From: Papaver somniferum
Taxonomy: Eukaryota > Streptophyta > Magnoliopsida > Ranunculales > Papaveraceae
Assembly (NCBI RefSeq): GCF_003573695.1
Contig: NC_039359.1
Coordinates: 187,076,813-187,140,812, forward strand
DNA: 64,000 bases
Direction of reading: 5' to 3'
Shown here: in pieces, positions 3,450 to 54,511 of the stretch
Numbering within the stretch: position 1 is the stretch's first letter
Layout of the letters: the number at the start of each line of letters is the position of its first letter
Position numbers and translations under genes: made by a program
The notes under the pieces: model-generated
Told to the model about the DNA's origin: nothing
Database searches by the model: none
The model's input: the letters and a program-made list of their open reading frames with translations, nothing else

Positions 3450-3665
3450 CAATTGAAATGATATAGACATTAAAAGCACCGCAATTGCACCGTAATTTTG
3501 TAAGCCTAAACAATTGATACTATACAAAATCAAGATAACAATGGTTTTTCTTAACCGGAACCAATTGAATAACACACACATAAATTGTACCGAAACTTTG
3601 TAAGCCTAAACAATTTATACCACACAATAAAGCAAGATAACAATAGTTTTTCTTAACCAAAACCA
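3450..3665. repeat. Two diverged tandem units of about 105 bp in the copia 3' internal region
   Basis: Units at about 3453-3563 and 3564-3662 share the order CAATTGAA, TTTGTAAGCCTAAACAATT, AAGATAACAAT and GTTTTTCTTAACC. A third, partial trace continues to about 3750. They lie in the long non-coding part of the element between gag and the 3' LTR. Confidence 0.55.
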
Positions 3666-4354
3666 ATTGAAACACACATCCACACACACATCATGGAATA
3701 AATATCAATTGAACCGAAATTTCGTTAAGAAAAAGCAACAAATATATATAATATAAACTCAGGCTTTTCTTAAACAGGAAAACAATTAACTAACAAGATT
3801 GTTACCTCAAATTTCGCATCCACTTCTCCAATATGATAGCATCTTCGTCCAGGGAGAATTGGTATCGAAATATCACCACGTTGTCATCCATATGCATAAA
3901 CAAAAGAATAAAAACACACCTCAACCTTTACCAGAGAAAGGCTGAAAACCGTTTTTAACAATTGCAAGCAAAAGTTGAAAACCGTCGAAACACATATGCT
4001 TTTATGCTAAAACAAAACCGATTCAACATATTGTGACTTTTTCACATATTGTTTCTATCAGAACCCCTCATGATCCGTTGATAAAGCCTACCTACTAGGG
4101 CTAGAACTTAATCCCGCTAAATCAAAAAGTTACCCAAACCATAAGGGTTCACAATATATGAGATCGAATATTAAGGTAGTAAAACCGAAATCAAGCATCC
4201 CATAAACATAAATAGCAATAAATTAAAAGCAATTAAGCACAGGCTATGTAAACCGAAAACTATCACAAGAAAAATTACTAATCAAATAATTTTATTCATA
4301 ATAGACCAATACAATCAATGAAAGAAATCAACAATTGATTTCTATTATACTCTC

Positions 4355-4585
4355 TCATTTCTTGTGAAGATTGCTTTCAAAAACTAGATTCAAATTCCTC
4401 TGAGTACTTCCTCTTTCAGTAGATATGCTCATCTCCAGCAGTTGAGAATGAAGGTTTGCTAGTACTTCTTTTGAATCCTTTATCATCAGTTCATGATACC
4501 TAATACAACCTTTAACAGGGTGAATTTGTTTCCTTAGAGAGGCTTGAGAGATTTCATGAAGAGGAGCATCATGAGTTTCAGTCAC
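4355..4585 (-). CDS. Short open frame downstream of copia gag, unrecognised
   Basis: A 76-residue open frame (MTETHDAPLHEISQASLRKQ...) lies about 275 bp beyond the gag stop in the same element and strand. It is hydrophilic, with heptad-like Leu spacing (MIKDSKEVLANLHSQLLEM). It could be a remnant of the gag tail or a chance frame. I recognise no domain. Confidence 0.2.
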   Translation of the reverse strand: MTETHDAPLHEISQASLRKQIHPVKGCIRYHELMIKDSKEVLANLHSQLLEMSISTERGSTQRNLNLVFESNLHKK

Positions 4586-4858
4586 AGAGTGCTAGATCAC
4601 CAAGAGATGATTCTTCTTTAACCGATTTCTCCACTGAAATATGATAATCTCCTTTCGGACAAGAATATTTATAAGATGGGAGAAAATCAAGGAATATATA
4701 AAAAAATTGGTTTAAGGAAACCAAAATTTTTCTATCCCAAAAATAAGAAATATTCAATATTTTTAACTAGAGAAACAATCATGAATATCTTGCCCAAATT
4801 TATGCTTCCTCACAATCAGAATTTTGGGCAACAAGTGATGATGCAAAACTCAACACAA

Positions 4859-6253
4859 TCAGTGTGTGTTGAGGTGAGAAATATTCTCACCAATCTTAGC
4901 AAAAACATCTTTAGGATGATTAATCAACACAGTGGATTGTGTTTCCATAGGTTCTCCCTCTCTCTTGTTATTGCGAGAATTTCCAATCATCTTTTGTAAG
5001 CCAAGAACTTTACCAGTCTTCCTTATCCCTTTTTGAAGAGCCTGGATAAGTTTGATTTCGCAAAGGATTGTAGCGAGATCATTTTCTTCACATGGAAAAC
5101 TTGTTGTGTCATCAGAAAAACTGGTTTCTGATTCTCTTGGTATTTCACCCAATTTTTCTGGTTCAGATTCTACCATACAGGATTGATCTGAAATGAATTT
5201 CAGCTGATTTTCAAGATCTAGGATTAACATTTCACTTTTCTTAATTTCCAACTCAAGTTTTTCTAAAAGTTGATTAGACTTACTGAAAACATCATAATTA
5301 GAGTTAGCAACAAGTGCATTGCAATTAGATATTTCTTCATTGGATAGTTCCTCCGGAATATCATCAAGAGTGGAAACATACGCTCTATTGCACTTTCCAG
5401 TTTTTCTGTTGGGGCACTGTTTTTCCATATGTCTGAATCTACGGCACTTGAAGCATTGAAATTCATCATTACCATTTCTATGGCAAACTGATAGAGTATC
5501 AGGAATACATTTATCACAGGATAATATGTTCTTAATTCGTTGCGCAAGATGCACAATAGTTGAGTCAAGCTCCTTTTCAACAGGTGCCATAACCTTTTGG
5601 CAACGTTTTTCAGTTTGATTCTTCAACAAAATTTCTCTATCAAAGATCTTTAACTTTCCTACAAGAGAGCTTCGAGAAAGTGTAGAAAGATCATTCCCTT
5701 CTATTATGGCATGCTTCTTAGACTCGTATTTGGATGGTAACGATTTGAGAATTTTGCATACTATTTCCTTTTCAGGTATTGCCTTTCCAAGGAGAAAAGA
5801 TGCATTAACAATCTCAGAAAGTTTAGAGTTAACCTCCTCAAAGGTGTCGTTATCATCCATATGGAGATGTTCCCATTCAAATGAAAGGATGAGAAGTCTA
5901 GCTTCTTTTTCAGATTCATCTCCTTCGGATACAGTCTCAAGAATATCCCATGCTTCTTTAGAAGTTCTACAAGACAGTACATGATGTAGAAGGTCATCAC
6001 TAACTGTATGTATAATGGCATTTAAACCATCTGAATTCTTTTTTGCAAGAATCCTTTCTTCAAGAGTATATGACGCTAGTCGTTTGAACTCTGACTCTGA
6101 ATAGTCTATCGGACGTTGGTATCCGTCTTCGATAAATAGCCATGTATTAAAATCTCGGGATTGAAGAAAGACCTTCATAGTCGATTTCCATAATGGATAA
6201 TTAGTTCCATTACATCTTGGTGGAACGTTAACTGAATCACTGACCAGATTCAT
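4859..6253 (-). CDS. gag: Copia gag polyprotein (UBN2-type with CCHC zinc knuckle)
   Basis: This open frame of about 464 residues starts at the ATG at 6253 (MNLVSDSVNVPPRC), 56 bp past the PBS. Nine in-frame codons upstream lack an ATG. The first 210 residues have the plant copia gag pattern: NYPLWKSTMKVFL near the start, then SKEAWDILE and an Asp/Glu-rich capsid-like helical region. A CX2CX4HX4C zinc knuckle (CFKCRRFRHMEKQC) follows at about residue 275, and then a coiled coil around SNQLLEKLELEIKKSEM. The protein packages element RNA in virus-like particles. It ends shortly after the coiled coil with a stop and no protease or integrase follows, so this is a stand-alone gag. The frame has no internal stops. 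Confidence 0.85.
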   Translation of the reverse strand: MNLVSDSVNVPPRCNGTNYPLWKSTMKVFLQSRDFNTWLFIEDGYQRPIDYSESEFKRLASYTLEERILAKKNSDGLNAIIHTVSDDLLHHVLSCRTSKEAWDILETVSEGDESEKEARLLILSFEWEHLHMDDNDTFEEVNSKLSEIVNASFLLGKAIPEKEIVCKILKSLPSKYESKKHAIIEGNDLSTLSRSSLVGKLKIFDREILLKNQTEKRCQKVMAPVEKELDSTIVHLAQRIKNILSCDKCIPDTLSVCHRNGNDEFQCFKCRRFRHMEKQCPNRKTGKCNRAYVSTLDDIPEELSNEEISNCNALVANSNYDVFSKSNQLLEKLELEIKKSEMLILDLENQLKFISDQSCMVESEPEKLGEIPRESETSFSDDTTSFPCEENDLATILCEIKLIQALQKGIRKTGKVLGLQKMIGNSRNNKREGEPMETQSTVLINHPKDVFAKIGENISHLNTH

Positions 6254-6308
6254 TCTTATAGGTTGGATCGCACCAAACACAGATTGTTAGATCTTTTCGT
6301 GTTTTCCT

Positions 6309-9443: not shown

Positions 9444-9565
9444 TCAAGATTCATAAGGGATATTTTGTATGCCACCATATTGTCTAACTACTCTCGTCGG
9501 TTTGTACATTATACATCCTTTGAAGTGAAACAGAGGTCTAAAATAACGTTGTTCCTCACACCCAA

Positions 9566-9787
9566 TTATCCTTTTTTCGCTACTTCTTTCTTGTAACAAC
9601 AAAAGACAACATATGTCGTCGTCAATTTGTACAATAGTTGTCTCAAATCCGAAAATATATTTTTCAAACTCTTCGTCTTACCATTGAAGGAGTATCGATC
9701 TCCAAAACAAACACCGTACCATTTTTTGTTCACGGGGACCCTTTCAACATACTTTGGTAAGTACAAGTATATCCACACCTGCATCAA
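9566..9787 (-). pseudogene. Open-frame remnant within the second copia relic, unrecognised
   Basis: A 73-residue open frame ends just past the inverted LTR fragment and reads in the same direction as the gag scrap at 9918-10172. It may be the continuation of that gag after decay, but I recognise no motif in it. Confidence 0.2.
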
Positions 9788-13404: not shown

Positions 13405-16400
13405 TTTTTTTTTTTTGCTAAGAAACACACCATGGCATTAACAAAGAAGAGAATTACAAACATCAGATAGGTTCACCTTCCTTATCAAAGAGTTTAATAA
13501 GGAAGGGATGGAGACCCAAAGACCTTTTAGACTATTTGTTCTAGCTCGACGTGCAAGTCGATCCTCTAAAAAATTATCTAGACGCTTAACATACACAGTT
13601 TTTAAGGAAATACACTTAGATAATAAATACCGACATTGTTCAAGAAGATCACCGCTCCGCCACTCTATATTACAGCTGACTCCATTAACAAAATGCACCA
13701 GTTGGAGACAGTCACTAACAAGAACAACTTTGGAGAGCTTCATCTCTTCTGCCCAAGTATTGCCAAAATTAGATTAGCAGCTTCAGCACCTACCGCATCT
13801 GAAATCAATCCAAAGTCAGCTCTCGAACTTCTTACATTTCCTGCACAATCACACCAGATGACACCCATTCCCATTTTAAAATCTTTAAAGGAACCATCAA
13901 TAAAAATGAAATGATCCACTTCAGCAGACATTATTTTAATATCTTTACAAATAACATAGGGACAGTGCTGGAGAGCAATTTAAGAGTAAATCATTCGCTT
14001 AGTATCCAAAATAACACGGGGCAGGTCAATCGATTTCTTCTTAAAGAGCACATCACACCTCAACTTCCAAATACACCACATCAATATAGCACCAACAGAA
14101 GGCCATGAAACTTTATAAGGAGAAGCAGCAAAATCAGGACTATGCCAATACAAAATAAATCATCAATCCATTCCATATCAGTTAAAATCAGGTGTTGTAA
14201 AGATATTCCAAACCAAACATGAGCAGCAATAGGGCATTCAATAAACAAGTGCATAATTGTTTCTTCTTTATTATGACATAAGGGACACAAGACATCAATC
14301 TCCTGGTTATACAACTGAAGCAATGTATTCACAGGGAGCACATGAGCAAATATTTTCCACAAAAAGAACTTGATTTTCGGTAAGCAATAAATACCCCAAA
14401 CTTTTCTCCAAAATCCAGAAACCTCAGACGAAATTATATCATTCACAAATATTATATAAGCTGAATTAACTGTAACTTGTCGTCCTTTGTGTGAGCCCAC
14501 ATTAAAGAATCATTGTGACTGGGATTTAATCTAATAGATTTAATTCTAGTAACAATCTCTTGCGGAAAAAGAGTAGAAAGCAGGTTATAGTTCCAGCAGT
14601 TATTATGAGAGTCAATTAGTTCATTAACATACGTATAATTACTTTGCGAAGGATGAGAAGACGACTGAGGGTTACTATAACCTGGAATCCAGATTGAATT
14701 CCAGATATTGGTAGAAGCCCCCTTATTAATTTTTACAACAGAGTTAGACTTGAAGAATCATAACCCATTTACAATACCTTTCCAGATCCAGGAAGAAGAG
14801 TCAGCAGCCATGTCTATCTCCAACAAATTCTGATTTGGAAAGTATTTATCTTTAAGAAAGGAAGCAAGTAAAATATTTGGGTTTTTCAAGATTCTCCAGC
14901 CAAGTTTACATATGAAGACTTTGTTAGTAGCATGAGTATTCCTAATACCTAAACCACCACTTAATTTAGATTTACCTATATCCCCCAAGAACGAAAATAT
15001 GTGGCGTGTTTAGGATTCCTTTTAGACCACCAAAATGTTCTCTGAGTGGTATCAATTTTAGAAGTGACAGACTTAGGAAGAGGAAAACATGCCATATGAT
15101 AAACAACTAAGGAAGATAACACATGCTTAGTGACAACTGTTCTTCCAGCAACATTGAGATTTGTCTTCTTAGTATAACTTAACCTAAAGCAAAAATTGTC
15201 AATGAGAAACTTGAAAGATTTTGTTTTATCTTTCCCAATAAACAACGGAGTACCTAAGTATTTTTCAAAACTACTAAGAAATTTCATTTTAAGAGTTTTG
15301 GATAAGATTTTAATATGCCTATGATGCATTTTATCACTAGTAATGAAACCTGACTTATCAAAATTAATCGCATGACCTGAGGCTTTAGCAAAGATATTTA
15401 TAATCTTTAAAACATTTCTAGCATAAGTGACAGAAGCTTTGGCAAACAACATATAATCATCGGCAAAAAAAAGATGAGAAATAGATGGACCATTCTTCTT
15501 GAATTTGAAGCCCTAAATCAAATTTTTCTCTTCAGCTTTCAGAAGCAATTGAGACAGAACTTCCATGCAAAGAATGAAGATATAAGGCGAAAGACAATCA
15601 CCCTGCCTAATATCCCTAGAAGGAAGGAAAGTTGCACCAGGAGTACCATTAACCAGAACCGAATAAGAAACCATACTAATGCATTGATATATCATTTGAC
15701 ACCAGTCATCTGAAATACCTAACTTTTTGAAAACAACAAGAATGAAAGACCATCCTAGTATATCAAAGGCTTTAGAAAGATCAAGCTTTATAGCAATATG
15801 ACCATTTTTAGTTTTTTTTTTCTTTTTAAAAGAATGTAGAATTTCATGGGTGATGATTATGTTATCATGAATCTGCCTATTGGCAACAAATGCTGACTGA
15901 TAAGGAGATATCAAAGTGTCTAAGATTGGTTTCAAATGATTGGTTAATATTTTAGAAATGATTTTTTACATAGTATTAGATAAACTAATGCGTCTGAAAT
16001 CATGAGGAGAGGAAGGATTCTTAACCTTGGGAATTAAAGTTATAAAAATACAATTTGACTGCTTAAGGAGAAACTTATTTTTGAAGAAACTCTGCACATG
16101 AGAGATAATTTCATCCTGGAAAATGTCCCATTTATCCTTAAAGAAACCAGCCGGTAACCCATCAGGTCCCTGAGAACTCCAAGGAGCTAAAGTATTGACA
16201 GTATCCTCAATTTCCTTAATCGAAGGAATGGAAGTTACAGAGAAGTTTTTAAGTCCTTAGAAATAATGGGACTAACAGACTTAAGAGCTTCCTCAATATC
16301 ATTATGACCAGGGTTGGAGGAAGTAAAGATTGACTTAAAATGTTTAGTAAGTAACTCAACAACTTGATCTCTATTTTCTAACCAATTTCCCTGATTATCT

Positions 16401-16841: not shown

Positions 16842-16855
16842 TACCTCCCTAGTTT

Positions 16856-17974
16856 GAGGCCTACACATATTATTTGAGACTTATCATTTTCTTCACCCAC
16901 CTACATTAAGGGGATAAGGGGTGTCTAAACTATGTGAAAGTACCAAGTTACCCTCACTATTAAAACAGAATCCTAAGCCTTATCCTTTTAGATTTTAAAC
17001 CTATTCAATTCCTCTGAAAACTAAAATCTATTCAAATCATTTCCCTCACAAACTAAAATTAAAACCTAACTTCATCAATCGATTCTAACTACATTGATCG
17101 ATTTAAAAATTGAATAAAATAAAATTATACATAGTCGATTGCAACCCATTACTCTTAATCATACTTGTGATTGATTTATCATTTATCTATTTTAAAATTG
17201 AAAATTGTAAACAATCTTGGGTTACTGTGTTTAACCATAATCGATCGACGTCCATGTCCATATTTAATGATTCCTATGATAACCGGTCAATGTTCATGAC
17301 CACGTCAACTGATTTATTTATATGTGTTTTCTGGTTGAAGAACATTTAGCCAGAATCGGTCGATGTTCATGCCCATATCGACCGAGTCTGGTATATAAGA
17401 AATGCCCATTTTTCAGTATGTTTTTTTGTTGTTGCTAGAATCGGATTATGTGAGTGGCACATAAACCGATTATATAGCCTTTTCTTAACTGTTAAGCCCA
17501 TAATCCGTTCATGTAAATATCCACACAAACCAATTCTTGGTGAAAAATGCGCAACCTTTTTGTATAGTTTCTACCTAGAATCGGTTTTTTATGAGCACTT
17601 GTATGGACCGATTATTTTAGTGCAGTGTTAGGAATCAGTCTATGTGTAAATCGTGCTTATCTATTCTTACAATCAGGCTATGTGTAATATGCAACGATTA
17701 TGGGTGTTCTTCGCGAACTAAAACATCAGCCAAGAATCGGTCTACAGGTGCATGAACATCCGCCGAATTTTTTTCATGTTTTGATGATGAATTAAGATCG
17801 GCTGATTTCTAGTTTAACAAAATTAAACATCTCTTAATTAACTGACTTAACACTAATTAATTAGAGACACATTAACCGATAAGTAAAATAATTGATTAAG
17901 GAATTTCCTGTTTTACTTTAATTTTTTATTATTTTTATCTTCTAGTGGTAGACCTCAAATAATATGTGTAGGTC
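16856..17974 (+). mobile_element. Hairpin-rich element B with 19-bp inverted termini
   Basis: CCTACACATATTATTTGAG near 16,864 recurs inverted near 17,953-17,971, giving terminal inverted repeats around about 1.1 kb. The interior has no credible gene. From about 17,060 to 17,880 it holds many ATCGGT/ACCGAT and ATCGAT words arranged as short hairpins, for example arms TCGGTCGAT (17356-17364) and ATCGACCGA (17377-17385). I found no clear target-site duplication. It looks like a non-autonomous DNA transposon related to element A. Confidence 0.55.
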
Positions 17975-21929: not shown

Positions 21930-24036
21930 AAGGAAAATAAACCCAATAGTCTTTAGTACAATACTTCCTAGCCCGACGTGCAAGTCGGTCAGCTAGACGA
22001 TTTTTAACACGCTTAATATACGTAATTTTAAAAGTTCTATTGTTAGAAAATACAGACTGACAATCTACCAATCTATCACTACTTCTCCATCTGATAATAC
22101 TACTATCCCCATTAACAAAATCTACAAGTTGGAGACAGTCACTAACGAAAATTACTTTAGACAGATTTTTCTCTTGCGTCCAAGAGAATGCCCAAAAAAG
22201 CGCAACTGTTTCAGCACCAACCGCATCTTGAATCAGTCAAAATTCTGAACCACAACCTCTTATCCTTCCTGAAGTATCACACCACATGAAACCCATACCC
22301 ATATTAAAATCTTTAAAAGAACCATCAACAAAAATAAAATGATTCACATCCTCTTTAAATATCTTTAACTCTTTCCTAACATTCTGATTAACCACAGGAG
22401 AAAACATATACGTGTTTATCATTCTTCTTATACCCAAAATAGTTTTAACCATATCAATATTAACTTTTTTAAAAACAACATCACATCTCAGTTTCCAAAT
22501 GCACCACATTACTATATCACCAATACTAGGCCAATTCACAGCAAAAGGAGATACTTCCAAACCTTTATCAAACCAATATAAGAATACATCTTCTGAACAA
22601 TTAGCATCAACAGAAACTAAATGTTGTAGAGATAATCTGAACCAGATATGCAAGGCAATAAGACATTTAAAGAACAAATACATAACTGATTCATCATCAT
22701 GCTTACACAACGGACAAATTTCATCTATATAAGTATTATAGCACTTCAGCAAGACATTTACTTGAGAAAAAAATTTCCACATAAAGAACTTAATCTTCGG
22801 TAGACAATCTAATTTCCACACTTTTTTCCAAAAACCAGCTTCATCCATAGAAACTGTTTCACTTGTAAACACTTTATAAGAAGATTTTATTGTATAATTA
22901 CCATCCCTAGTATGATCCCACATTATCCTATCATTTTTCCTTGTACTTAACCTAATAGTACAAATTTTCTTGACTTGGACCTGAGAGAATAAGTCATTCA
23001 ACAAACCCAAATTCCAGCAGTTATTACGAACATCAATAAGATCACTAACTAAAACAAAATCCTTATGACAAGGATTAACAGACACGGGAGGAGAAGCTTC
23101 AAAAAGAATCTAGTTCGAGAGCCATATATTAGTAGACAAGCCATTATTAATTTTTATAAATATATTGGATTTAATGAAACCTAAACTATTTACAATACCT
23201 TTCCAAATCCACGAAGATGAGTCAGCAGCCTTATCAATTTCTAGTAAATTCGGATTTGGATAATATTTATTCTTCAAAAAACAAGTTAACAAAAGATCCG
23301 GATTCTGCAGTAACCTCCAACCCAATTTAGCAATGAAAACTCTATTTGTGGCATAAGATTTTCTAATACCCAACCCACCACAGAGTTTAGATTTACCAAT
23401 ATCCCCCAAGATCTAAAATAAGCAGCATGTCTAGTATCTTTTTTAGACCACCAAGACCCTCTGGATAGAATCAATTTTAGAGGTTACCTTCTTAGGAAGC
23501 GGAAAGCACGCCATATGATACACATCGAGGCTGGATAACACATGTTTAGTCACAACTATTCTTCCAGCAACATTTAAATTTGTCTTTTTACAAGAGTTTA
23601 ATCTAGAATAAAACTTTTCAATTAAAACTTGAAAGCTTTTTGTTTTATCCCTATTGATAAAAAGAGGCGTACCAAGATATTTTTCAGAGTTACACAAAAA
23701 TTTCATTTTAAGAGATTTCGAAAGAAATTCTATGTGTTTATGATGCATTTTAGAGCTAGTAATAAACCCAGACTTGTCAAAGTTTATAGCTTGACCGGAG
23801 GATTTAGCAAACATATTAATAATCTTCATAAGATTCTTAGCATAAACCAAAAGCTTTGGAAAAAAGCATGCAATCATCAACAAAAAACTGATGAGAAGTC
23901 GATGGACTATCCTTCCTAATTTTAAAACCTTGAATAGACTTCTGAGATTCAGCCGTGAGAAGTAACTAAGATAAAACTTCCATGCATAAAATATAAAAAT
24001 ATAAGGCGAAAGACAATCACCCTGCCTGATACCTCT
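21930..24036 (-). pseudogene. LINE-2 ORF2, C-terminal two thirds: RT palm to RNase H
   Basis: On the minus strand the frame enters from the insertion with RGIRQGDCLSPYIF. The catalytic box, near 23,895-23,885 in a shifted frame, reads FVDD instead of the FADD of LINE-1. NLNVAGRIVVTKHVLSS and HMACFPLPK follow at about 23,600-23,500, then GGLGIRK at 23,380. A 282-residue open frame at 23085-22237 contains the zf-RVT region (CPLCKHDDESVMYLFFKC) and the start of RNase H (FIFVDGSFKDFNMGMGF). RNase H continues in other frames to about 21,930. Frameshifts and the insertion make it dead. Confidence 0.85.
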
Positions 24037-35290: not shown

Positions 35291-36543
35291 TTAATCCTGG
35301 TAGACAGGATCTTTCAGCTCTGATTCTTCTATTGCATGACTGGGTAACTCCAAAAATGGTTTCAACCGCTGAACGTTAACCTTGAAAGTTTCTCCGTTCT
35401 TAGGATTTTCAACTTCAACTGCACCATGAGGAAAAACAATTTTGAAAAAGTATGGTCCGGTCCACCGAGACCTCAATTTACCAGGGAAAAGATGTAAATG
35501 AGAAATGTAAAGGAGAACTTTTTGACCTGGTTCAAATGTCCTTCGAATAATCGATTTATCATGAAATATTTTTGTTTTCTCCTTGTAAATTTTCGCACTC
35601 TGGTAAGAATCATTACGAATTTCTTCTAACTCATTGAGTTGCAGTCTACAGTGATCACCAACAGTAGATATGTCAAAGTTTAGCCGTTTAATAGCCCAAT
35701 AAGCTCGGTGTTCTAATTCTACAGGCAAGTGGAAGGCTTTACCGAAGACAAGTCTATACGTAGACATCCCAAGTGGAGTCTTAAAAGCGGTTCGGTAAGC
35801 CCACAATACTTCTACTTAGCGCAAAGACCAATCATTTCGGGTAGGGTTTACGGTCTTTTCTAAAATCTGTTTAATCTGCCTATTAGACACTTCAACTTGG
35901 ACACAAGTTTGTGGGTGGTAAGGTGTAGAAACCTTATGGGTAATGGAGTATTTCTTTATGAGCGCCTCAAAAGACCGATTACAAAAATGGGAACCTCATC
36001 ACTAATGATTGCTCTAGGCATACCAAATCGAGAGAAAATATTGTCTCTAACAAACTTGATCACAACGTGGCGATCATTTGTCTTGGTAGCGATTGCTTCT
36101 ACCCACCTAGACACATAGTCAACAGCTAATAAGATGTAAAAGTTGCCATAAGAATTGACAAAATGACCCATAAAATCTATACCCCACACATCAAATATTT
36201 CTATTATTAATGTAGGACTAAGTGGCATCATATTACGTCGGGTCATCTTTCCTAACTTTTGACATCTATCACAACTTTGACAAAATAGGTGTGAGTCCTT
36301 AAACAGTGTTGGAAAATAAATACCGGATTGCAAAACTTTCGCATCTTTTTTCTTAGAACTAAAGTGACCCCCACAAGCTCCAGAATGACAAAAAGTCAAA
36401 ACACTGGAGATTTCGTTGTCAGGAATATAACGACGGATGATCTGATCAGGGAAATATTTGAATAAGTACGGATCATCCCAGAAAAAGTATTTAACTTCAG
36501 AAAAGAATTTAGCTCTATACAGTTTAGACCAATGGTCGGGCAT
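35291..36543 (-). pseudogene. Athila integrase, frameshifted
   Basis: The frame 36543-35956 begins in the RNase H-integrase linker. It carries the HHCC zinc-binding part (CHSGACGGHF, then CQSCDRCQKLG) and the first catalytic Asp (VWGIDFMGHF). It loses the frame after the second Asp region ([10 protein letters not shown]). A second frame, 35806-35291, covers the C-terminal part ([37 protein letters not shown]). The roughly 150 bp between them are in a third frame. No chromodomain is present, as expected for Athila. Confidence 0.85.
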
Positions 36544-38028
36544 TTTCCCGTTACCAAATAATTGACAATGTCAGCGAACCAGGGTAACAAAGAGATGGAA
36601 AATAAATGTTCGTCAGGGAACCCGTCAAGGATCGGTTTCTCATCATCTCTAATCTCATTAAGGATACGGGATAAATGGTCAGCTACTGCATTTTCAGAGC
36701 CTATCTTATCACGAATATCTAGAGTAAATTCTTGGAACAATAATACCCATCTGATCAATCGAGGTTTTGAGTCCTTCTTTGAAAGGAGATATTTGAGCGC
36801 AGCATGATCATAATAGACTATGACCTTAGACCCTAGGAGATATGACCTAAATTTCTCCAGAGCAAAAACGATGGCTAACATTTCCTTCTCAGTGGTTGTG
36901 TAATTCAACTGGGAATCGTTTAGGGTCTTACTAGCATAATAAATCACACTAGGTTCTTTATCACGTCGTTGGCCAAGGACAGAACCAATCGCATAATCGG
37001 AAGCATCACACATGAGTTCAAATGAGAGGTTCCAATCGGGTGGTTGGATGATAGGGGCAGAAGTCAATAATAATTTAAGCTTCTCAAAAGATGAAACACG
37101 GGCTTCGTCAAACAAAAATGCAGTATCTTTAGCAAGTAAGTTCGACAGAGGTAATGTAATCTTGCTAAAGTCTTTGATGAAATAACGATAAAATCGAGCA
37201 TGGCCTAGGAAAGATCTAAAATCTGTTACATTCTTAGGTGGTCTTAATTTTGAAATTAGTTCAACCTTGGCTTTATCAACTTCTATTCCCTTAGAGGACA
37301 CCACATGTCCTAAAAATATTCCAGATTTAACCATAAAATGACACTTTTCCCAATTAAGGACTAAGTTCTTTTCCTTACAACGTTTTAGAACTAGTGTAAG
37401 GTGGTGCAAGCACTCATCGAACGAGGAACCAAAAACGAAAAAATTGTCCATAAAGACCTCGAGAAATCGCTCGACCATGTCCGATAAGATACTTAGCATG
37501 CAACGTTGGAATGTTGCGGGTGCATTACACAACCCAAAAGGCATACGCATGTAAGCAAAAGTACCAAATGGAAATGTGAAGGTTGTCTTCTCTTGGTCTT
37601 CCGAGGCTATAGGTATTTGGTTATAATCGGAATAACCATCTAGGAAGCAATAATGGATGTGGCAAGCTAATCTTTCTAACATTTGGTTGATGAATGGTAA
37701 AGGAAAGTGGTCTTTCCTAGAGGCTGAGTTCAGCTTACAGTAGTCTATACATACTCTCCACCCGGTGGTAACACGGGTAGGTATCAATTCATTGTTCTCA
37801 TTTGCAACTACCGTAATCCCAGACTTCTTTGGGACAACTTGGACATGGATGACCCATTTTACTATCAGATATGGGGTATATGATACCCGCATCTAACAAC
37901 TTGAGCACCTCAGTGCGAACAACTTCCTTCATATTAGGATTCAAACGTCTCTGCATTTCTCTTAAGGTTTTGGCACCTTCTTTTAGGTAGATGTGGTGCA
38001 TACAATCAGCAGGACTAATTCTTTTCAA
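36543..38028 (-). pseudogene. Athila reverse transcriptase and RNase H
   Basis: The 498-residue frame 37892-36396 spans RT and RNase H; its N-terminus lies in another frame at 38028-37798 ([14 protein letters not shown]), a one-base shift. Landmarks are [36 protein letters not shown] and the active-site box, which reads FMDN at 37454-37443 rather than the usual F/YxDD. The connection and RNase H follow ([59 protein letters not shown]). A long open frame with the second catalytic Asp changed to Asn suggests fairly late inactivation. Confidence 0.9.
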
Positions 38029-45452: not shown

Positions 45453-46548
45453 AGAAGGGTAAAATACTTCACCTGGCGATCCATTTATCAAAACTGAATA
45501 AGAAACTGTACTAATACACTGATAGATTAATTGACACTAATCATCAGAAAAACCAAGCTTTTTAAACACAACAATTATAAAAGACCATTCTAACTTATCA
45601 AAAGCTTTAGAAAGATCCAACTTGATTGCCATAAAACCATTTTTAGATTTTCTTTTTCTTTTTGAAAGAATGAAGAATCTCATGACTGAGAATAATATTA
45701 CCGTGAATTTGCCTATTTGCTATAAAAGCAGACTGAAAGGGAGAGACTAGAGCATCCATCATAGGTTTGAGACAATTAGTTAATATCTTTGAAATGATTT
45801 TATACACAGTATTAGAGAGACTAATGTATCTAAAATCATTCGGAGAAGAAGGATTATTTACCTTAGGAATCAAAGAAATGAAGGAATGATTCATCTGTTT
45901 TAGCAAGAATTTTGATCTGAAAAAATTCTGAACATGTGAAATAACTTCAGGAGAAGTCCCATCCCAATTATCTCTAAAGAAACTAGCAGGATATCCATCC
46001 GGACTTGGAGATTTCCAAGGGGGCATGTTCTTCACAGTAACAAATATTTCTCCAATAGAAGGAATAACAGTCAAAGAATCATTCAATTCATCAGAATTAA
46101 TCGGTTTAATATCTCTCGTAGCTTCATCAATATCAATACTAGTTGGATTATAAGTAGTGTATATATTCTTGAAATGTTTAGATAATAGAGAAACAACTTG
46201 TTCTCTATTATCTAACCAATTTCCTTGATCATCTTTTATAGTATGATTAGTATTATACATATTTCTGAGTTTCACCTTATTATGGAAAAATTTCGTATTT
46301 TTATCATACTGCGTAAAGTAATCAATCCTATATTTTTGTTTATAAAAACTATCCTCAATTTCATACCAATAATCCAGTTGCTTCGAATAGTTTAGAATAT
46401 AACCACCAATTTCAGGAGTATAAGGCTTATATTGTAAGTTCTCTATTTCAAAGTTCAACCGACTGATTTTAGTTTTAATGTGACCAAAAGAACTAATATT
46501 CCACTGATTCAGATCCTGCTTTAAATTTTTAAGCTTACCTACTACCAC
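45453..46548 (-). pseudogene. LINE-2 ORF2, linker and RT fingers
   Basis: A 301-residue open frame (46548-45643) has the pre-RT linker (LDYWYEIEDSFYKQKYRIDY) and RT blocks (PPWKSPSPDGYPASFFRDNW; SFISLIPKV; SAFIANRQIHGNI). It ends in a Lys-rich stop. A second frame to 45453 continues with AIKLDLSKAFD and reaches PGEVFYPS, where the Tat-like insert interrupts the RT. The next residues, RGIRQGDCLSP, are at 24036. Confidence 0.85.
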
Positions 46549-46640
46549 AAAACTTCAGAGAACCATTCATATTCTTAACTCAAGAATTATGAAGAACATT
46601 TTTAAAATTTGGATTCAACTGCCAGCATATCTACTTGTAG
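45453..46640 (-). mobile_element. LINE-2, 5' part
   Basis: LINE homology resumes directly after the Tat-like LTR and ends at about 46,640, close to the point where LINE-1 is truncated. Homology to 15.6-16.8 kb is strong throughout. A target duplication for LINE-2 is not clear; TCTACTT occurs on both sides but is weak. Confidence 0.85.
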
Positions 46641-47568
46641 AAATTAACATTTAATCCCAAATTAGTTGGGATTTAGACACTTTAGTCCCGTCCCTTCAAG
46701 CCTAGTACTAGGAGGTCCAAATTTACCAAATGTAAAACGAGTTACTCCTTTTACAAACGATTCAGTCCAAAATTATATTTTTTGGTGACAAAAATACCCA
46801 TAAGCTGAACTTAATATTACTTCTTCATGGTACAGGATACAGTTTCCATTTTTTTAGAAGAAAAAAAATCTGAAATCTAATCTCGTCATCTCAATGAAAA
46901 CTCAATCTCAAAAACTAAACACGATTATCAAATAAACACTCAGTTCAGCTTCAAACAACGTGTATCGTCGCCATTAGTTTTCTTTTGAAGATCCATTCGA
47001 AATTGAGATGAAAAGTTGATCAGATTCAATTTTATTTTGAAGATTTCATCATAGCGATTAGGAAGATAAGTTGAATACATAATTATCATTTAATGTGACC
47101 GCTATTATTAATTTATGGATTTTTAATTAGTTTCAGAATTTTTTTTTTACTGTTTCGAAAACCTAATTGCTTTGATTTCGGCTCGAATTTCTTATTTGAT
47201 TAATGATTATATTTTACATCTAAAATTATCTCATTTTAATCTATCTATCTGTAGAAGTCTCTGCTCCGGAACCTGTTCTTAATAATGGAGACCATTTCTA
47301 CGACCGGAACAGGTAATCACGAATCATACCTAATTTCTTATTAGTTATATTTAGCTTGATCTTTGTGTATATTTATTCATAGAATTTGGAGACTGGAATG
47401 GTAATTAAATTGTACTAGGATATGTATAATGAAGTTAGTAATTTCTATACAATAAATATTATTAGTAGAGTTCTAATTCTCTTCCCTAGTTTTTCTTTAG
47501 TATAATTTATGATGTTAGTAAATCATGAGCAACCAGCTCAAACAAAGATAAATTGATGAGAAAATAAT
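46641..47568. other. Intergenic, no gene recognised
   Basis: AT-rich sequence. A short exon-like piece near 47,254-47,312 ends at GGAACAG/GTAATC, but no gene can be built around it. The 6.9-kb DNA transposon is inserted at the right end. Confidence 0.4.
47561..47568. repeat. Target-site duplication AAAATAAT (left; right copy 54504-54511)
   Basis: The same 8 bases flank both ends. With the preceding G (47560) and the G at 54503 the duplication could be 9 bp. That matters for the superfamily (hAT 8 bp, Mutator about 9 bp). Confidence 0.85.
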
Positions 47569-47609
47569 CCTGGCGTTTTTAGGGGCCACTCAAAAGGATT
47601 TAGGGGCCA
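47569..47609 (+). repeat. Left terminal inverted repeat
   Basis: 41 bp, identical to the reverse complement of 54463-54503. The word AGGGGCCA occurs twice within it, 18 bp apart. Confidence 0.95.
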
Positions 47610-47693
47610 TCAATTTATACCCAGCCAAAGACTCTAGTTAAGGGGTACCCTATATGATATTGAAGTTACATAAATGCCCTTCTGGTAAAACTG

Positions 47694-47700
47694 TATAAAA
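47694..47700 (+). promoter_or_regulatory. TATA box of the PMD gene
   Basis: TATAAAA lies about 85 bp inside the left terminal repeat and about 155 bp before the ATG at 47851. The leader is CT-rich. Confidence 0.5.
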
Positions 47701-48053
47701 ACCAAATCAAAAACAATTCTACTCATTTCAACTCTTCTTCTTCCAGTTTCATATTATTTTCCGATTGTGGAAGAAAAAAAAATTCCTTGTTCAACCGAAA
47801 CATCGCCGCGAATCGTAAAATCAAAACATCGTCGATTCGATTATAAAACAATGGATAAGAGAAATGAAACCCACAGACCTAGAACCAAAAATGTTGCTCG
47901 GGGTATCGATCCAAACATTGGAATTTTAGCAAGAAATAAAGAAATTCTTGCTGCAAATGAAGAAGAACGCGAAGAACAAGTACCCGACAATGTAGTCGGT
48001 GGTGGCGATTCCGAGACTCAAACACTTCGTCAACTTCAAATGGACCCAATTAG

Positions 48054-48829
48054 GTAAGAATCTATCATTTTTGGGGTTTATTTCGCTTTAATTCGTCGAA
48101 TCGAGAAAAAAAATTTCTAGGGTTATCGGTTATTTATCCAGATTCGGACGATATGCATGCTCATTTACTTCCGAATGTAGTCGTGTTCTTTATTTTTCAA
48201 GAACATCGACAGTATTCGGGAGAAAGATTTGATGATTATCTGCCGAATATTGGTGGCCATATCTTCCTGGATACAAACTGCTAATAATCGGTAGTTTAAT
48301 GAATTTTTTGGCTACCGAATATATTTAAGTAGACACAAAGTATTCGGAAGAACACTCACTACCGAATGTATATATTGAAAAAATCTCAAAATTTATGATA
48401 TAGGAAAAATCCCATTTTGGGGCCAGTATATATTCGGAAGACAATATAATGTTTTATACCTCCGATTGTGTAGGATAAAATTTTAGAGTTTCTGAACTCC
48501 AGTTGATGAATATTCGGTTGTAAACGTGTTTAGTTATATTCCGATTGTTTTTCATTCGGAAAAAAGATGTGTCTTCTTACTTCCGAATTTGTACATTCGG
48601 GTTATAGAGGTGCACTTTTTCTTCCGATTGTGTAGGATGAAAAATTTACAGCTTCTGAACTCCAATTGATGTATATTCGGTTGCAAATATGTTTAGTTAG
48701 CTTCCGATTGTTTTGTATTCGGGAACAATATGTGTCTTTACGTCCGAATGTGTACATTCGGGTTATATTTCCATACTTTGTCTTCCGATTGTATAGTTTG
48801 TAAATATTGTTCCTTTCTTTGTTGTTTAG
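48054..48829 (+). repeat. Intron 1: TTCGG/CCGAA hairpin repeats
   Basis: ATTCGG and CCGAAT/CCGATT words alternate every 15-60 bp. The last 330 bp are two tandem units of about 165 bp (about 48,464-48,625 and 48,626-48,790) sharing CTGAACTCCA, TTGATG.ATATTCGGTTG and GTACATTCGGGTTAT. Confidence 0.75.
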
Positions 48830-50123
48830 ACAAAGTCGAGAAGGGAGGAAGAAAGTGACAGCTAGTGCTAGGAGGGAAAGGAGTGCCAAAGATAATTCAG
48901 GTGCTCAACAAAGCGAACAAGAACAAAGCAGTCAACAAGGAGTGCAACCAACTGTTGAACAACAAGGCAGTGAACAAGGGGTGCGACCAAGTGTTGAACA
49001 AGCCGCTCAACAAAGTGCAGGACCAAGTGTTGAACCAGTTGATCCATTGGCAAGAGTAGAAGAAGAAGGACAACCAAGTGGTACCCAAAAAGCCAAAAAA
49101 GGAAAAGATGTTGTAAGGAAGGATATTGCTAAGAAAGCATCACATCTTGTCCCTCAGCACTTGAAGAAGAAGGGTATTCCAGCAGGCACAATCCTTGGAC
49201 TACCACGGATGGAGGAAAATTGCTATTTGGATACAAAGACTCATGGGCCAGAGAAATATATGAAACCGAGGTAATAAAATTACTATTTTTTATTAATGTA
49301 TTGTCTATATATTATATCGTAATATTGTATTAATAGGATCATCAAGATGCGGTCCGTCTACTCAAACCTACCGCCGCACCAACAAAAATGCTTGCGTGGC
49401 CTTTATCCGGTGAATGTGAAAGGTTCAAGACAATTGTTGCCAACTCGGGGTTAGCTAATGCCGCCGAGAATTCATTGTTGGAACATGATCGTGTGGCCAT
49501 ATCGGCGTTCGTGGAGAGAATGTATCCTGAGACCGATACTTTCCATATGCCGTTTGGGGAGATGACGATCACCCCGGATGATGTTGTGCAGATTCTTAAC
49601 CTTCCCGACCAAGGCACAGCTGTGAAGTTTAACTACACAAAGCAGTTAAGTTGGGCACAACTTTATTCTCTAACTAACAAGTGCTTAGGTTGGGATGAAG
49701 AGACAACAACAACAGAGTTTAGGAGGCATGCAAGTTACAGAACAAGACAGATCAACATTACAGCTTTGATGATATATTTCGAGGCACCTTGGAGAAGGAA
49801 AAGAATGGAACGTTAACTGATGAGCAAGTGAACCACGCTGCCACGCATATCTCCTTTGTGTATTGGGATGTGTCATATTCCCCAATACTTCTGGCAACCG
49901 GATCGACGCCAACCTTATACAACTTTTGGATCCTCTCCATGAAGTCGGTGACTATTCTTGGGGCACGGCATGCCTAGCATTCTTGATGGAAGAGTTGAGA
50001 AAGGCTTCGAGGCTAGGAACCTGCCAAGTTGCCGGGAATGTGGCTCTATTGCAGGTTTTTTCTTTAACTCTATAACTCACTCTATAGTTATTCAGTAGAC
50101 AATACATATGATGCATTCCATAA

Positions 50124-50745
50124 CTCCAAATGACGCATATTCGGTAGGAAATTATCCATCTCTTTTCCGAATGTTGGTTATTCGGTGGTTAGGTACTTAC
50201 TTGTTTTCCGATTATATACAATCGGAAATATTCTTTTGATATTAGAACCGAATATACAGGCCAGAAAAGCTATAGGTTACTGAACTCCAAATGACGCATA
50301 TTCGGTAGGAATTGATCCATCTTATTTCCGAATGTTGGTTATTCGGTGGCTAGGTACTTATTTTTTTCCGATTATATACAATCGGAAATATTCTTTTGAT
50401 ATTAGAACCGAATATACAGGCCAGAAAAACTATAGGTTACTGAACTCCAAATGACGCATATTCGGTAGGAATTGATCCATCTTATTTCCGAATGTTGGTT
50501 ATTCGGTGGCTAGGTACTTATTTTTCCGATTATATAAATCGGAAATATTTTTTGATATTAACCGAATATACAGGCCAGAAAAACTATAGGTTACTGAACT
50601 CCAAATGACGCATATTCGGTAGGAAATGATCCATATCTATTTCCGAATGTTGTGGTATTCGGTGGATAGGTACTCAGTTTTGTTTCCGATTATATATAAT
50701 CGGAAATTATGTTTGGAAATTACTACCGAATATACACAATCTATT
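50124..50745 (+). repeat. Intron 3: four tandem units of about 160 bp
   Basis: Units begin at 50124, 50285, 50445 and 50599 with CTCCAAATGACGCATATTCG. Each contains two hairpins. One has ATTCGG.AGGAAAT and TTTCCGAATG arms. The other has perfect 9-bp arms, TTTCCGATT (50205-50213 in unit 1) and AATCGGAAA (50220-50228). Confidence 0.9.
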
Positions 50746-51829
50746 TACTAAAACTTGGTTTCTTATGTATATAGGCATGGATCTATGACCACTTCCCTAT
50801 CCTGAAGTTGGCCGGAGAGAACCCGGGGTGGTGCAAAGGTACTCCTAGAGGAACAAAGTATATATTTGAAGACAACCGTTCTAGGACAAAGAGCAGCAGT
50901 TGATTCGCATGAGGGAGATTTTGGACCAATTGAAGGCCTCGGACGTATGCTTTGATCCATACAAGGAAGATCGAGTCAGTGGGCATATAAATGTTCGGTC
51001 GGACTTGTCCCTTTATTTTGGACCATTGTGGCACCCCACAGGATATGTGATGTATAACCCCTCTAGGGTGATGCGACAACACGGGTATATACAACATCAA
51101 CCTCTGGAGAAAATGGGGGATTACTACAAATTGGAGTTGGAGTTGTGTTCTTCTAGTGGTGAATCTCACGATTGTTCACACAGGCCCACCTACTGTTCTT
51201 GATAACTGGGATAAGAGGAATGACTTCATTATCGACACTGGTAGACGAACCACCGAGGTGATGAAAATTCTCCAGACTATATGAGTTGGTATAACAAGGT
51301 ATCACATCCTTTGGTTATCCGTGAAATCAAATCCAACACTACTGCGGCGGGTTCAAGTTATAATTGTATCATCAAAGACAAACCAGCTGGTTATGATAGA
51401 CTGGTGCGTGTTCTTATATTTTTGTTCATTTTATATTATTCCTATAAATCTTAGGTAATTACCGTTTGATGTTATGTCATTACGTATAAAAAACAGGTGA
51501 ATAGGTTCAAGCGTGTTTCCAAAATGTTAACTGCATGCTTGAAGAGCGGAGATCCCATGCCAGCTGAGAAGATCAAAGAGGCTAGAGATCTAGTTGATAA
51601 TATGGATAACGAAGATTATGCTGCCCAGTTTGGGGAGAAAGTCACGAAGAGGCATCCCAAGGTGGCAGTATCAAAGACGGGTAAAAGAACTCGAGCTTCA
51701 TCGAGCGCTGAAGTGCTCCAACTGAAGCTGCTCCAACTGAAGTGCTCAACTGAAGGTGCTCAAACCCGTGGTCGTGCAGGACTGGGAGGTAGTCACGGTC
51801 GTAAAGTAAAGAAGAGCAGATAAATGACA

Positions 51830-53290
51830 ATGATTTTTGTTGTACATTCGGAAATTTGTTTGGGTAACTAAGTTAGACAAGTTCAAATGACAATGATGTT
51901 GTGTGGTATATTCGGAAGTTTTGGTAACTAATTTAACTTCCGATTATTTCAAAGACAAAATTTGAAAAGTATAAGTTTTTCCAAATTCTGATTTTTGGGC
52001 CATCGTACATTCGGAACTTTAAAAAAACCTATCCTCCGAATATCACAAGTTCAAAACAAACCACGCCATGGCTCCAGGTGGTTCCAAGGGCCATATTGAA
52101 GGTTAGACATCCCATATTCGGAAGTTTTGGTAACTAATTTAACTTCCGATTATTTCAAAGACAAAATTTGAAAAGTATAAGTTTTTCCAAATTCTGATTT
52201 TTGGGCCATCGTACATTCGGAACTTTATAAAAAACCTATCCTCCGAATATCACAAGTTCAAAAAAACCACGCCATGGCTCCAGGTGGTTCCAAGGGCCAA
52301 TATTGAAGGTTAGACATCCCATATTCGGAAGTTTTGGTAACTAATTTAACGTCCGATTATTTCAAAGACAAAATTTGAAAAGTATAAGTTTTTCCAAATT
52401 CTGATTTTTGGGCCATCGTACATTCGGAACTTTATAAAAAACCTATCCTCCGAATATCACAAGTTCAAAACAAACCACGCCATGGCTCCAGGTGGTTCCA
52501 AGGGCCAATATTGAAGGTTAGACATATTCGGAAGTTTTGGTAACTAATTTAACGTCCGATTATTTCAAAGACAAAATTTGAAAAGTATAAGTTTTTCCAA
52601 ATTCTGATTTTTGGGCCATCGTACATTCGGAACTTTACAAAAAACTATCCTCCGAATATACAAGTTCAAAACAAACCACGCCATGGCTCCAGGTGGTTCC
52701 AAGGGCCAATATTGAAGGTTAGACATCCCATATTCGGAAGTTTTGGTAACTAATTTAACGTCCGATTATTTCAAAGACAAAATTTGAAAAGTATAAGTTT
52801 TTCCAAATTCTGATTTTTGGGCCATCGTACATTCGGAACTTTAAAAAACCTATCCTCCGAATATCACAAGTTCAAAACAAACCACGCCATGGCTCCAGGT
52901 GGTTCCAAGGGCCAATATTGAAGGTTAGATCCCATATTCGGAAGTTTTGGTAACTAATTTAACTTCCGATTATTTCAAAGACAAAATTTGAAAAGTATAA
53001 GTTTTTCCAAATTCTGATTTTTGGGCCATCGTACATTCGGAACTTTATAACCTATCCTCCGAATATCACAAGTTCAAAACAAACCACGCCATGGCTCCAG
53101 GTGGTTCCAAGGGCCAATATTGAAGGTTAGACCCATATTCGGAAGTTTTGGTAACTAATTTAACGTCCGATTATTTCAAAGACAAAATTTGAAAAGTATA
53201 AGTTTTTCCAAATTCTGATTTTTGGGCCATCGTACATTCGGAACTTTACAAAAAAATTATCCTCCGAATATTACAAGTCAAAAAAAACTG
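51830..53290 (+). repeat. Seven tandem units of about 205 bp between the convergent genes
   Basis: ATTCGGAAGTTTTGGTAAC starts units at 51910, 52116, 52323, 52526, 52732, 52936 and 53137 (spacing 206, 207, 203, 206, 204, 201). Each unit includes ATTCGGAAG...CTTCCGATT or CGTCCGATT, ATTCGGAAC...CCTCCGAATAT, and the text CCACGCCATGGCTCCAGG. Differences are mainly single bases and 1-5 bp gaps. Confidence 0.95.
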
Positions 53291-53529
53291 TTTCCTGGAA
53301 CCAAACAACACCATAATCGGAAAGAAAGTTGACTCATAAATAACCGAATATTACAATCGGTAGGTTGTTTAACAAAATAATCTACCGATTTCGTATAATC
53401 GGCTAGTTTTTATATTAATAATACTCCGATTACATCCATTACATAAAGTTCAAACGGCCTTAACCTTACAATTTCGTCAAAAGCACCTAAATCCATACTC
53501 CTAATTGACCATAAAAGTATTAAAACAGA

Positions 53530-53987
53530 TCATAACTTCCAGTGACCATAGAAATTGTCCCTCTTGATTTTGTAGCATCCTTCATGTTCAAATCGTTTCC
53601 CGTAGAGGTCCACATACCGGCGATCCGCAAGATTTCTCTGAAATTACGAATGAGTAACAAGTTAGTACTAACTTTTGTTAATGTGATTGGAGTTACAGAG
53701 ATACTTACTCGTTTTTCATACGTCCACCAAGGAAAAGCGTTCCTAACAAACCGTTCCTCATCTTCAAGTTTGTCAATCTCCTTATCTAGCGCATTCTTTC
53801 TCATCTTAATGTCATTGGATGTTCGAATTCGATTACCATCTAAGGCCTCAAATACCATTAAGATACGGTTCCATATCTGCTCTTCGGATTCCGATTTGTG
53901 GAGCTTGTGAACACGATCATGAGTAGTTACCACAACCCACGCTCTATAAATAGCACAATCTTCTTCTTCGGCAAAAGCAATATCCAT
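53530..53987 (-). CDS. Small Myb/trihelix-like DNA-binding protein, two exons
   Basis: Minus-strand exons are 53987-53709 and 53637-53530, joined by a canonical intron (GTAAGTATC...ATTTCAG) in phase 0, giving about 128 residues. The start chosen is ATG 53987 (MDIAFAEEEDC). An in-frame upstream extension lacks support, and a TATA box lies about 70 bp upstream. Features are an acidic start, Trp-spaced helices (AIYRAWVVV; EEQIWNRILMVFE), a charged middle (KMRKNALDKEIDKLEDEERF) and a C-terminal block (RYVDLYGKRFEHEGCY; NFYGHWKL). The pattern resembles the plant 'GST T3-like'/NAM-associated Myb-SANT proteins, also found as the accessory ORF of PIF/Harbinger transposons. I infer DNA binding. No stops or frameshifts are seen, in contrast to the partner gene. 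Confidence 0.7.
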
Positions 53988-54057
53988 GTTTTTGTTATGA
54001 AAATTAAAACTGAGAGAGGAAAGAGTTTGGTGCAATTGGGGTGATAGATATGAGTTT

Positions 54058-54066
54058 CTTTATATA
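54058..54066 (-). promoter_or_regulatory. TATA box of the Myb-like gene
   Basis: The minus strand reads CCTATATAAAG about 70 bp before the ATG at 53987. Confidence 0.55.
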
Positions 54067-54129
54067 GGTTTAGGGTCCAACGGCTCTTTTTGTTTTTCCC
54101 AAAAACTCCAACGGCTAATTTGACGAAAG

Positions 54130-54385
54130 TTGAATGTGGAGAAACCAATAATCGGTAGGTATTGGATTTAGCATATCTACCGATTATGGTAGCTTTCAAA
54201 ATTTGAATTTGCGGCAACTTATAATCGGTAGGTTTTGTAATATATTTAACTCTCGATTAACGCTGAATCCAAAACACGAACCAAGAAATACTGCACCTCG
54301 TATAATCGGACGTCTGGCAAATATTTTGGCCTCCGATTTCATTCGGAGGGTAACAATGTTATCATATCCTCCGAATATATAAGGG
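54130..54385. repeat. Right subterminal hairpins of the 6.9-kb transposon
   Basis: A hairpin with 11-bp perfect arms lies at 54148-54158 (ATAATCGGTAG) and 54177-54187 (CTACCGATTAT). Further ATCGG, CCGAT, TTCGGAGG and CCTCCGAAT words follow to 54,380. The motif family is the same as in the introns. Confidence 0.75.
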
Positions 54386-54462
54386 TAATTTCGCCATTAC
54401 GAATTACGCGAGATAAGGGCTGGCTACATTTTCCCTTTGGGTGACCTTTTTTGTTTTATTGT

Positions 54463-54503
54463 TGGCCCCTAAATCCTTTTGAGTGGCCCCTAAAAACGCC
54501 AGG
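54463..54503 (-). repeat. Right terminal inverted repeat
   Basis: 41 of 41 bases match the left repeat when reverse-complemented. Beyond it the two ends diverge within a few bases. Confidence 0.95.
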
Positions 54504-54511
54504 AAAATAAT

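Follow-up and report, generated by a model that had tools for sequence, protein, structure and literature searches.

A terminal inverted repeat DNA transposon of opium poppy carrying a plant mobile domain gene and paired AWTCGG arrays, with no recognisable transposase

Results

Structure of the element and its copies in the poppy genome

The window analysed in this work (a stretch of 64,000 bp from the Papaver somniferum genome, contig NC_039359.1, positions 187,076,813 to 187,140,812) harbours a complete terminal inverted repeat (TIR) DNA transposon at window positions 47569..54503, designated class A (CCTGGCGTTTTTAGGGGCC ends). It carries two genes arranged tail to tail, one of five exons encoding a plant mobile domain (PMD) protein and one of two exons encoding a small protein, together with dense arrays of the short motif AWTCGG in inverted pairs. 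The left TIR (47569..47614, plus strand) contained two TTAGGGGCC-type repeats, a design common to the class-B ends described below, and the right TIR lay at 54458..54503 (minus strand). The termini were CCTGGCG at 47569 and CGCCAGG at 54503, the inverted ends (CCTGGCGTTTTTAGGGGCCACTCAAAAGGATTTAGGGGCC) measured about 46 bp, and the arms were 98% complementary over 47 nt (one flanking base per end included). These CCTGGCGTNNTTAGGGGC-type ends were accompanied by 8-bp target duplications, AAAATAAT being present on the left (47561..47568) and on the right (54504..54511). TATA-like sequences, which the first-pass annotation had placed near each end, were visible by eye in the sequence at 47694-47700 and at about 54059-54066 (minus strand). 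No Rfam family was found in the window at threshold.

When up to 3 mismatches were allowed, a search of the Papaver somniferum genome (2.7 Gb, 34,283 contigs) with the 40-bp end gave 1,007 and 1,016 matches (2,023 in total), compared with none for a reversed-pattern control; with the inverted ends and the flanking AAAATAAT on both sides, this bears out the bounded mobile unit proposed earlier. Among named proteins, the nearest relatives were those of this species. Twenty of the 39 other copies listed by left-end similarity were analysed together with the window copy (21 copies in all), and both ends were present in 17 of them. In L012 and L016 the arrays of a 206-bp repeat were so long that the right end fell outside the fetched 10 kb, or nearly so; L025, a partial match only, and L027, with 1,100 unknown bases, were excluded from the 17 complete copies. 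The array between the genes had grown to at least 4 kb in L012 and L016, array length being highly variable among young copies. The duplication, first described as 8-9 bp long, does exist, and its length was 8 bp: exact in 14 of the 16 class-A copies with both flanks readable (the left flank of L018, the remaining complete copy, was cut off) and with one mismatch in L023 and L024, whose flanks were read by eye. Mutator-like elements (MULEs) typically generate 9-bp duplications, and the 8-bp length, seen in class A and in class B, corresponds to the hAT type and not to the MULE type.

Apart from one insertion in L010, none of the 17 complete copies contained a stretch longer than 40 bp foreign to the window element, and hence none contained a transposase gene. 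The longer copies had been considered as a source of a third gene, a candidate that was rejected: the extra length of L010 (8.6 kb) corresponded to a stretch of 2,682 bp inside PMD exon 3 (element positions 2290-4971), private to this copy and taken for a nested insertion. Searches within the element found no MULE transposase in the scanned open reading frames (ORFs) of the window element or in the L026 proteins, and no hAT transposase in the element ORFs, the copies or the L026 proteins. Apart from the L010 insertion, the 17 complete copies were made up of window-element sequence, with 8-bp duplications wherever both flanks could be read and no MULE or hAT gene seen between the ends, and the absence of a recognisable transposase noted at first held throughout the 17. 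Nor were the two genes peculiar to the window copy: each of the 17 had the exons of the small gene and some or all of PMD exon 3. Class-A copies were about 1-2% apart outside the array regions; judged from this sequence divergence, class A is young overall and has multiplied recently.

The PMD gene and the small gene

The two convergent, intron-containing genes predicted at first sight were substantiated: splice sites were present, and the exons were conserved among copies. The PMD gene (plus strand) consists of exon 1 (47851..48053, placed by splice sites and conservation), exon 2 (48830..49270, including a 39-bp peptide-coding tandem repeat at 48921-49035), exon 3 (49337..50054, the first part of the PMD, matched by Pfam PMD in pieces), exon 4 (50775..51403, the second part, a piece of which matched Pfam PMD, alone below the cut-off) and exon 5 (51497..51823). 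The domain assignment was clearest in copy L026, whose PMD protein matched PF10536 with 158.9 bits (E 2.5e-46, cut-off 34.9) over profile positions 13-347 of 347 and showed no other Pfam domain above the curated cut-off. The window copy of the gene is broken, its frame being shifted in exons 2-5 relative to L026, and was matched in pieces. Splicing of all five exons was possible in 12 of the 17 complete copies, one of which gave an open frame (L026, 773 codons); exon 4 was lost from L011 and mostly lost from L021, and exon 5 was lost from L011. A PMD remnant (window 9453-9611, minus strand) was 35-55% identical to the poppy relative P0003 (E 2.5e-5) and to P0022 (E 2.8e-4), and proteins P0009-P0014 were PMD relatives in spinach and Linum with no fused transposase domain listed.

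Divergence between copies was 0.8-1.0% for PMD exons 3-5, 2.2% for exon 1 and 1.3% for exon 2, and in the non-coding parts 1.5% for intron 1 and the region upstream of the small gene and 0.9-1.0% for introns 2 and 4. Selection on the exons within class A is unclear, because exons 1-2 were more diverged and introns 2 and 4 diverged by only 0.9-1.0%, and PMD changes shared between copies (2 silent, 4 replacement) were too few to judge. Changes private to single copies were near neutral (ratios of 1.20 for PMD and 0.99 for the small gene), which is the pattern to be expected when most copies are already non-functional at insertion; the PMD ratios are weak, the PMD majority reading having had an early stop which was taken for an alignment artefact. 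Between families (L026 vs. L029 or L030, see below), the ratio of replacement to silent substitution rates (dN/dS) for PMD was 0.43 at a dS of 0.73, and the true value is probably lower because L029 and L030 are damaged copies.

The small gene (minus strand) comprises exon 1 (53709..53987, supported by splice sites and conserved in diverged copies) and exon 2 (53530..53637), and was open in 9 of the 17 complete copies, the window copy included. Its product is about 129 residues long (the working translation retains the acceptor CAG, one residue too many) and was conserved between families (58-63% to L026). The first-pass annotation had taken it for a Myb/SANT-like protein accompanying PIF/Harbinger transposases, a label that was not borne out: nothing scored above the Pfam cut-off, no Myb, SANT or trihelix family of Pfam matched the small protein or three relatives even when E values of up to 5-10 were admitted, and no DNA-binding domain was recognised. 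PIF/Harbinger elements make 3-bp target duplications, and the Myb/trihelix and PIF/Harbinger reading of the element was rejected on the 8-bp duplication together with the missing Pfam match to a Myb/SANT accessory protein.

Paired AWTCGG arrays

The most conspicuous feature of the element, absent from the first-pass annotation, was its arrays of paired AWTCGG motifs (context about AYAWTCGGWAG). Ninety motifs were found in the element (12.98 per kb vs. 0.77 per kb in the rest of the window), 89 of them outside the called exons, with neighbouring motifs alternating in strand in 86 of 89 cases. In 41 cases two motifs made up an inverted pair (ATTCGG...CCGAAT), the distance between their starts being 25-31 bp (mode 29); none of 100 dinucleotide shuffles gave more than one such pair. 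Four clusters were distinguished: intron 1 (48142..48790, 10 pairs), intron 3 (50139..50731, 12 pairs on a 160-bp tandem repeat), the intergenic region (51846..53431, 16 pairs on a 206-bp tandem repeat plus a trio spaced by 41 bp) and the region upstream of the small gene (54150..54376, 3 pairs, no tandem array). Many pairs are not independent, because they belong to tandemly repeated units of about 160 and 206 bp; outside the three array intervals there were 26 motifs, 18 of which formed 9 pairs spaced 29-30 bp.

All 17 complete copies contained 25-53 pairs at 26-31 bp. Spacing differed with the half-site in class A: it was 29-30 in 78 of 79 AATCGG-AATCGG pairs and 28-29 in 258 of 314 ATTCGG-ATTCGG pairs, a further 18 of the latter being spaced by 20. 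In the flanks (102,968 bp) motif density was 0.85 per kb (88 motifs); of the 7 pairs there, 4 were in the window and 3 of those inside an apparent small element. Window positions 16853-17972 have inverted ends (CCTACACATATTATTTGAG) and AWTCGG pairs at 17439/17466, 17579/17608 and 17735/17763, and probably represent a separate, older element whose paired motifs are similar; another pair was located at 12501/12528, with a LINE-like (long interspersed nuclear element) reverse transcriptase between the two. Retroelement pieces (copia gag, reverse transcriptase with RNase H, LINE-like reverse transcriptase and zf-RVT) were recognised in the window at 4862-6286, 36399-37892, 45646-46554, 14084-15965 and 22240-23109.

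Related families and gene-less copies

A genome search with P0003 gave 13,930 first-look candidates, of which 87 were scored and five loci were fetched from the list. L030 (family B) was a complete 4.8-kb element with a class-A-like end design, the duplication AAGAAATA, a PMD 58% identical over residues 220-669 and 14 pairs, with no small-gene match. The PMD was 53% identical in L029 (4 pairs), 52% in L033 (small gene 73%, 16 pairs) and about 81% in L032, as was its small gene (28 pairs). The left end of L031 was of class A, its PMD exons were 90-99% identical and it contained 9 pairs, with no small-gene match within the fetched stretch; in this locus (positions 3823-5136) PMD exons 3 and 4 were continuous, without intron 3 (one tblastn piece, residues 233-669). 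The half-site varied between families, AATCGG accounting for 38 of 39 AWTCGG motifs in L030 and 13 of 15 in L029, vs. 661 of 1,826 in the 21 class-A copies.

A second end class, class B (CCTGGNGTNRTTAGGGGC), gave 63 and 68 matches (control, 0). All eight facing-end pairs closer than 6 kb among the matches listed were taken, blind to their content. Motif counts in the eight ranged from 27 to 41, inverted pairs spaced 25-31 bp numbered 4-12 per locus, with one pair at most in 200 shuffles of each, and their duplications were 8 bp long (exact in four, with one mismatch, read by eye, in the other four). L034, L035 and L036 had PMD and pairs with no small-gene match, L037 had a PMD remnant, and L038 had 12 pairs and no PMD, its small-gene match being weak (28%, E 3.5e-6). 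Neither gene was matched in L039 (2.4 kb), L040 (1.7 kb) and L041 (1.3 kb), which retained 29-30 motifs and 9-10 pairs: ends and arrays are what the small copies retain. A second geometry, with AWTCGG in the same orientation at alternating steps of 19 and 21-22 bp, was observed in L038 (element positions 178-260) and L040 (element positions 129-270).

Predicted fold of the PMD protein

P0003 was modelled from 43 sequences, replacing an earlier, poor model from 13 sequences (predicted local distance difference test, pLDDT, 41.7). The new model was mostly helical (mean pLDDT 72) and its clear fold match was VANC21; the Z-based structure comparison covered the chains ranked by Foldseek. At the sequence level, two domains characterise VANC, DUF1985 and DUF287; the former was matched by 27 of the 43 PMD proteins when E values of up to 1 were admitted (best 1.3e-4), and the latter was not among the listed matches.

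Discussion

Comparison with known systems

In Arabidopsis, VANC21 binds short motifs packed in the non-coding tandem repeats of VANDAL21 and brings about a loss of methylation there, motif and protein varying between VANDAL families (PMC5735166, PMC10398659), and the transposase of these elements, VANA, is a separate protein (PMC5735166). The poppy element resembles VANDAL21 in several respects: a predicted PMD fold matching that of VANC21, dense short motifs in the introns and intergenic tandem repeats of its own family, arrays prone to growth and shrinkage, a motif type varying among related families, and peptide repeats in variable parts of the protein. It differs in having PMD in place of VANC, in the arrangement of its motifs as inverted pairs with a spacing of 28-31 bp, in its TIRs and 8-bp duplications, and in its small second protein, with no VANA seen in the copies studied.

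Proteins with a PMD are known from other mobile elements. In grasses and Amborella, MULEs carry PMD-C fused to the transposase, and their authors speculated on anti-silencing (PMC5418596); these also are DNA transposons with a PMD protein aboard, whereas in poppy the PMD is encoded separately, with no MULE transposase and in the company of motif arrays and another, small gene. Ty3/gypsy elements carry PMD-A (PMC5418596, PMC8616336) and likewise encode a PMD on a mobile element, but the poppy element is a TIR DNA transposon with no reverse transcriptase or long terminal repeats inside. Counter-silencing by PMD proteins encoded by transposable elements (TEs) has been proposed before, a mechanism being lacking (PMC5418596, PMC8616336).

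A further parallel is offered by maize Spm/En, which has many short subterminal sites in both orientations; these are bound by its protein TnpA, relieving methylation. Spm/En differs from the poppy element in its CACTA ends, its 3-bp duplication, its own transposase and the restriction of its sites to the vicinity of the ends.

A self-specific anti-silencing cassette

We favour, somewhat above even, the interpretation that this opium poppy element is a TIR DNA transposon which lacks a transposase of its own, lives by a PMD-based, VANC-like, self-specific anti-silencing cassette and is moved in trans. The PMD protein, with its predicted VANC21 fold, would bind AWTCGG half-sites, probably as two molecules per inverted pair about 29 bp apart. 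Because such sites fill the non-coding parts of the family, the protein would gather on its own family, where it would remove or block silent marks and keep genes and ends accessible. A transposase encoded elsewhere would recognise the TTAGGGGC end repeats and integrate the element into AT-rich targets, generating 8-bp duplications, and small gene-less copies, by retaining the sites, would benefit in trans. No such gene was seen in the copies studied, and the simplest reading is that the transposase is supplied in trans. Of the three options first considered (a lost third gene, mobilisation in trans or an unrecognised mobility role of one protein), it fits best, and a role of PMD in anti-silencing seems more likely than one in transposition. 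The PMD protein is preferred over the small protein as the putative binder because L030, L034, L035 and L036 have PMD and pairs with no small gene.

Several points weigh against this interpretation. The model is of a relative (P0003 is 57% identical to L026 over 68% of L026), high Z values are frequent by chance for helical models, and VANC21 was not retrieved by the PMD profile at the sequence level. VANC21 motifs have one orientation and lack CpG, whereas the poppy motifs form inverted pairs and contain CpG. The decay of CpG left no footprint of protection at the motifs, which were slightly worse over all regions (19 of 636 motif CpGs vs. 37 of 2,314 others, P 0.03) and equal in intron 1 (15 of 462 vs. 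7 of 209). No transposase partner was seen in the copies studied, L038 points the opposite way as to the binder, and in Arabidopsis the PMD relatives MAIN and MAIL1 promote TE silencing, an effect of opposite sign (PMC5418596).

Alternative explanations

Binding of the paired motifs by the small protein or by an unseen transposase, as in maize Spm, with PMD serving another task, is unlikely. It would account for the pairs upstream of the small gene, for L038 and for the conservation of the small protein between families, and pairs kept in gene-less copies are expected of any trans-acting binder; the four loci with PMD and pairs and no small-gene match speak against it, as do the lack of a recognised DNA-binding domain in the small protein and the predicted PMD fold, which is that of a known motif-binding protein.

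We consider it distinctly improbable that the cassette has no function at all, the element being a successful non-autonomous transposon with captured host sequence in which arrays are tandem-repeat noise and genes are passengers. Most copies are indeed broken, private changes look neutral and many pairs sit in tandem repeats; however, the 9 pairs outside the arrays keep a 29-30 bp spacing, the same pair spacing recurs in families with PMD only 52-58% identical, gene-less copies keep their pairs, and the dN/dS of PMD between families is 0.43.

That the PMD protein serves host silencing, being recruited by the arrays to keep the element in check or to control host genes, is very doubtful. MAIN and MAIL1 are PMD proteins required for TE silencing (PMC5418596, PMC7156037), but here the PMD is encoded by the element itself, which multiplied recently; moreover, MAIN, MAIL1 and PP7L also activate genes, MORC1 included (PMC9899485), so that the silencing effect of MAIN and MAIL1 may be indirect. 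Hardly any credence can be given to one of the two proteins being an unrecognised transposase, a reading suggested by the lack of any other gene in the 17 complete copies, given the mostly helical PMD model with its VANC21 match, the separate VANA protein of VANDAL elements (PMC5735166) and the shortness of the small protein for a transposase.

Implications

Under the preferred interpretation, a VANC-like anti-silencing cassette, sequence-specific anti-silencing would reach beyond the VANDAL elements of Arabidopsis, to a transposon of a different type in a distantly related plant. A wider proposal, whose chances we regard as evenly balanced, is that PMD and VANC form one ancient DNA-binding, chromatin-opening family, of which the poppy PMD version would read inverted AWTCGG pairs by a spacing code, with a half-site preference for each family, and that gene-less derivatives would multiply by keeping the code. 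The predicted fold, in common with that of VANC21 on DNA, and a ready set of paired candidate sites lend themselves to a simple binding experiment, and the gene-less copies reveal which cis sequences persist. If PMD and VANC are one family, the host proteins MAIN and MAIL1 would be direct, sequence-specific DNA binders. The poppy element may offer a hint at the role of the puzzling PMD protein family.

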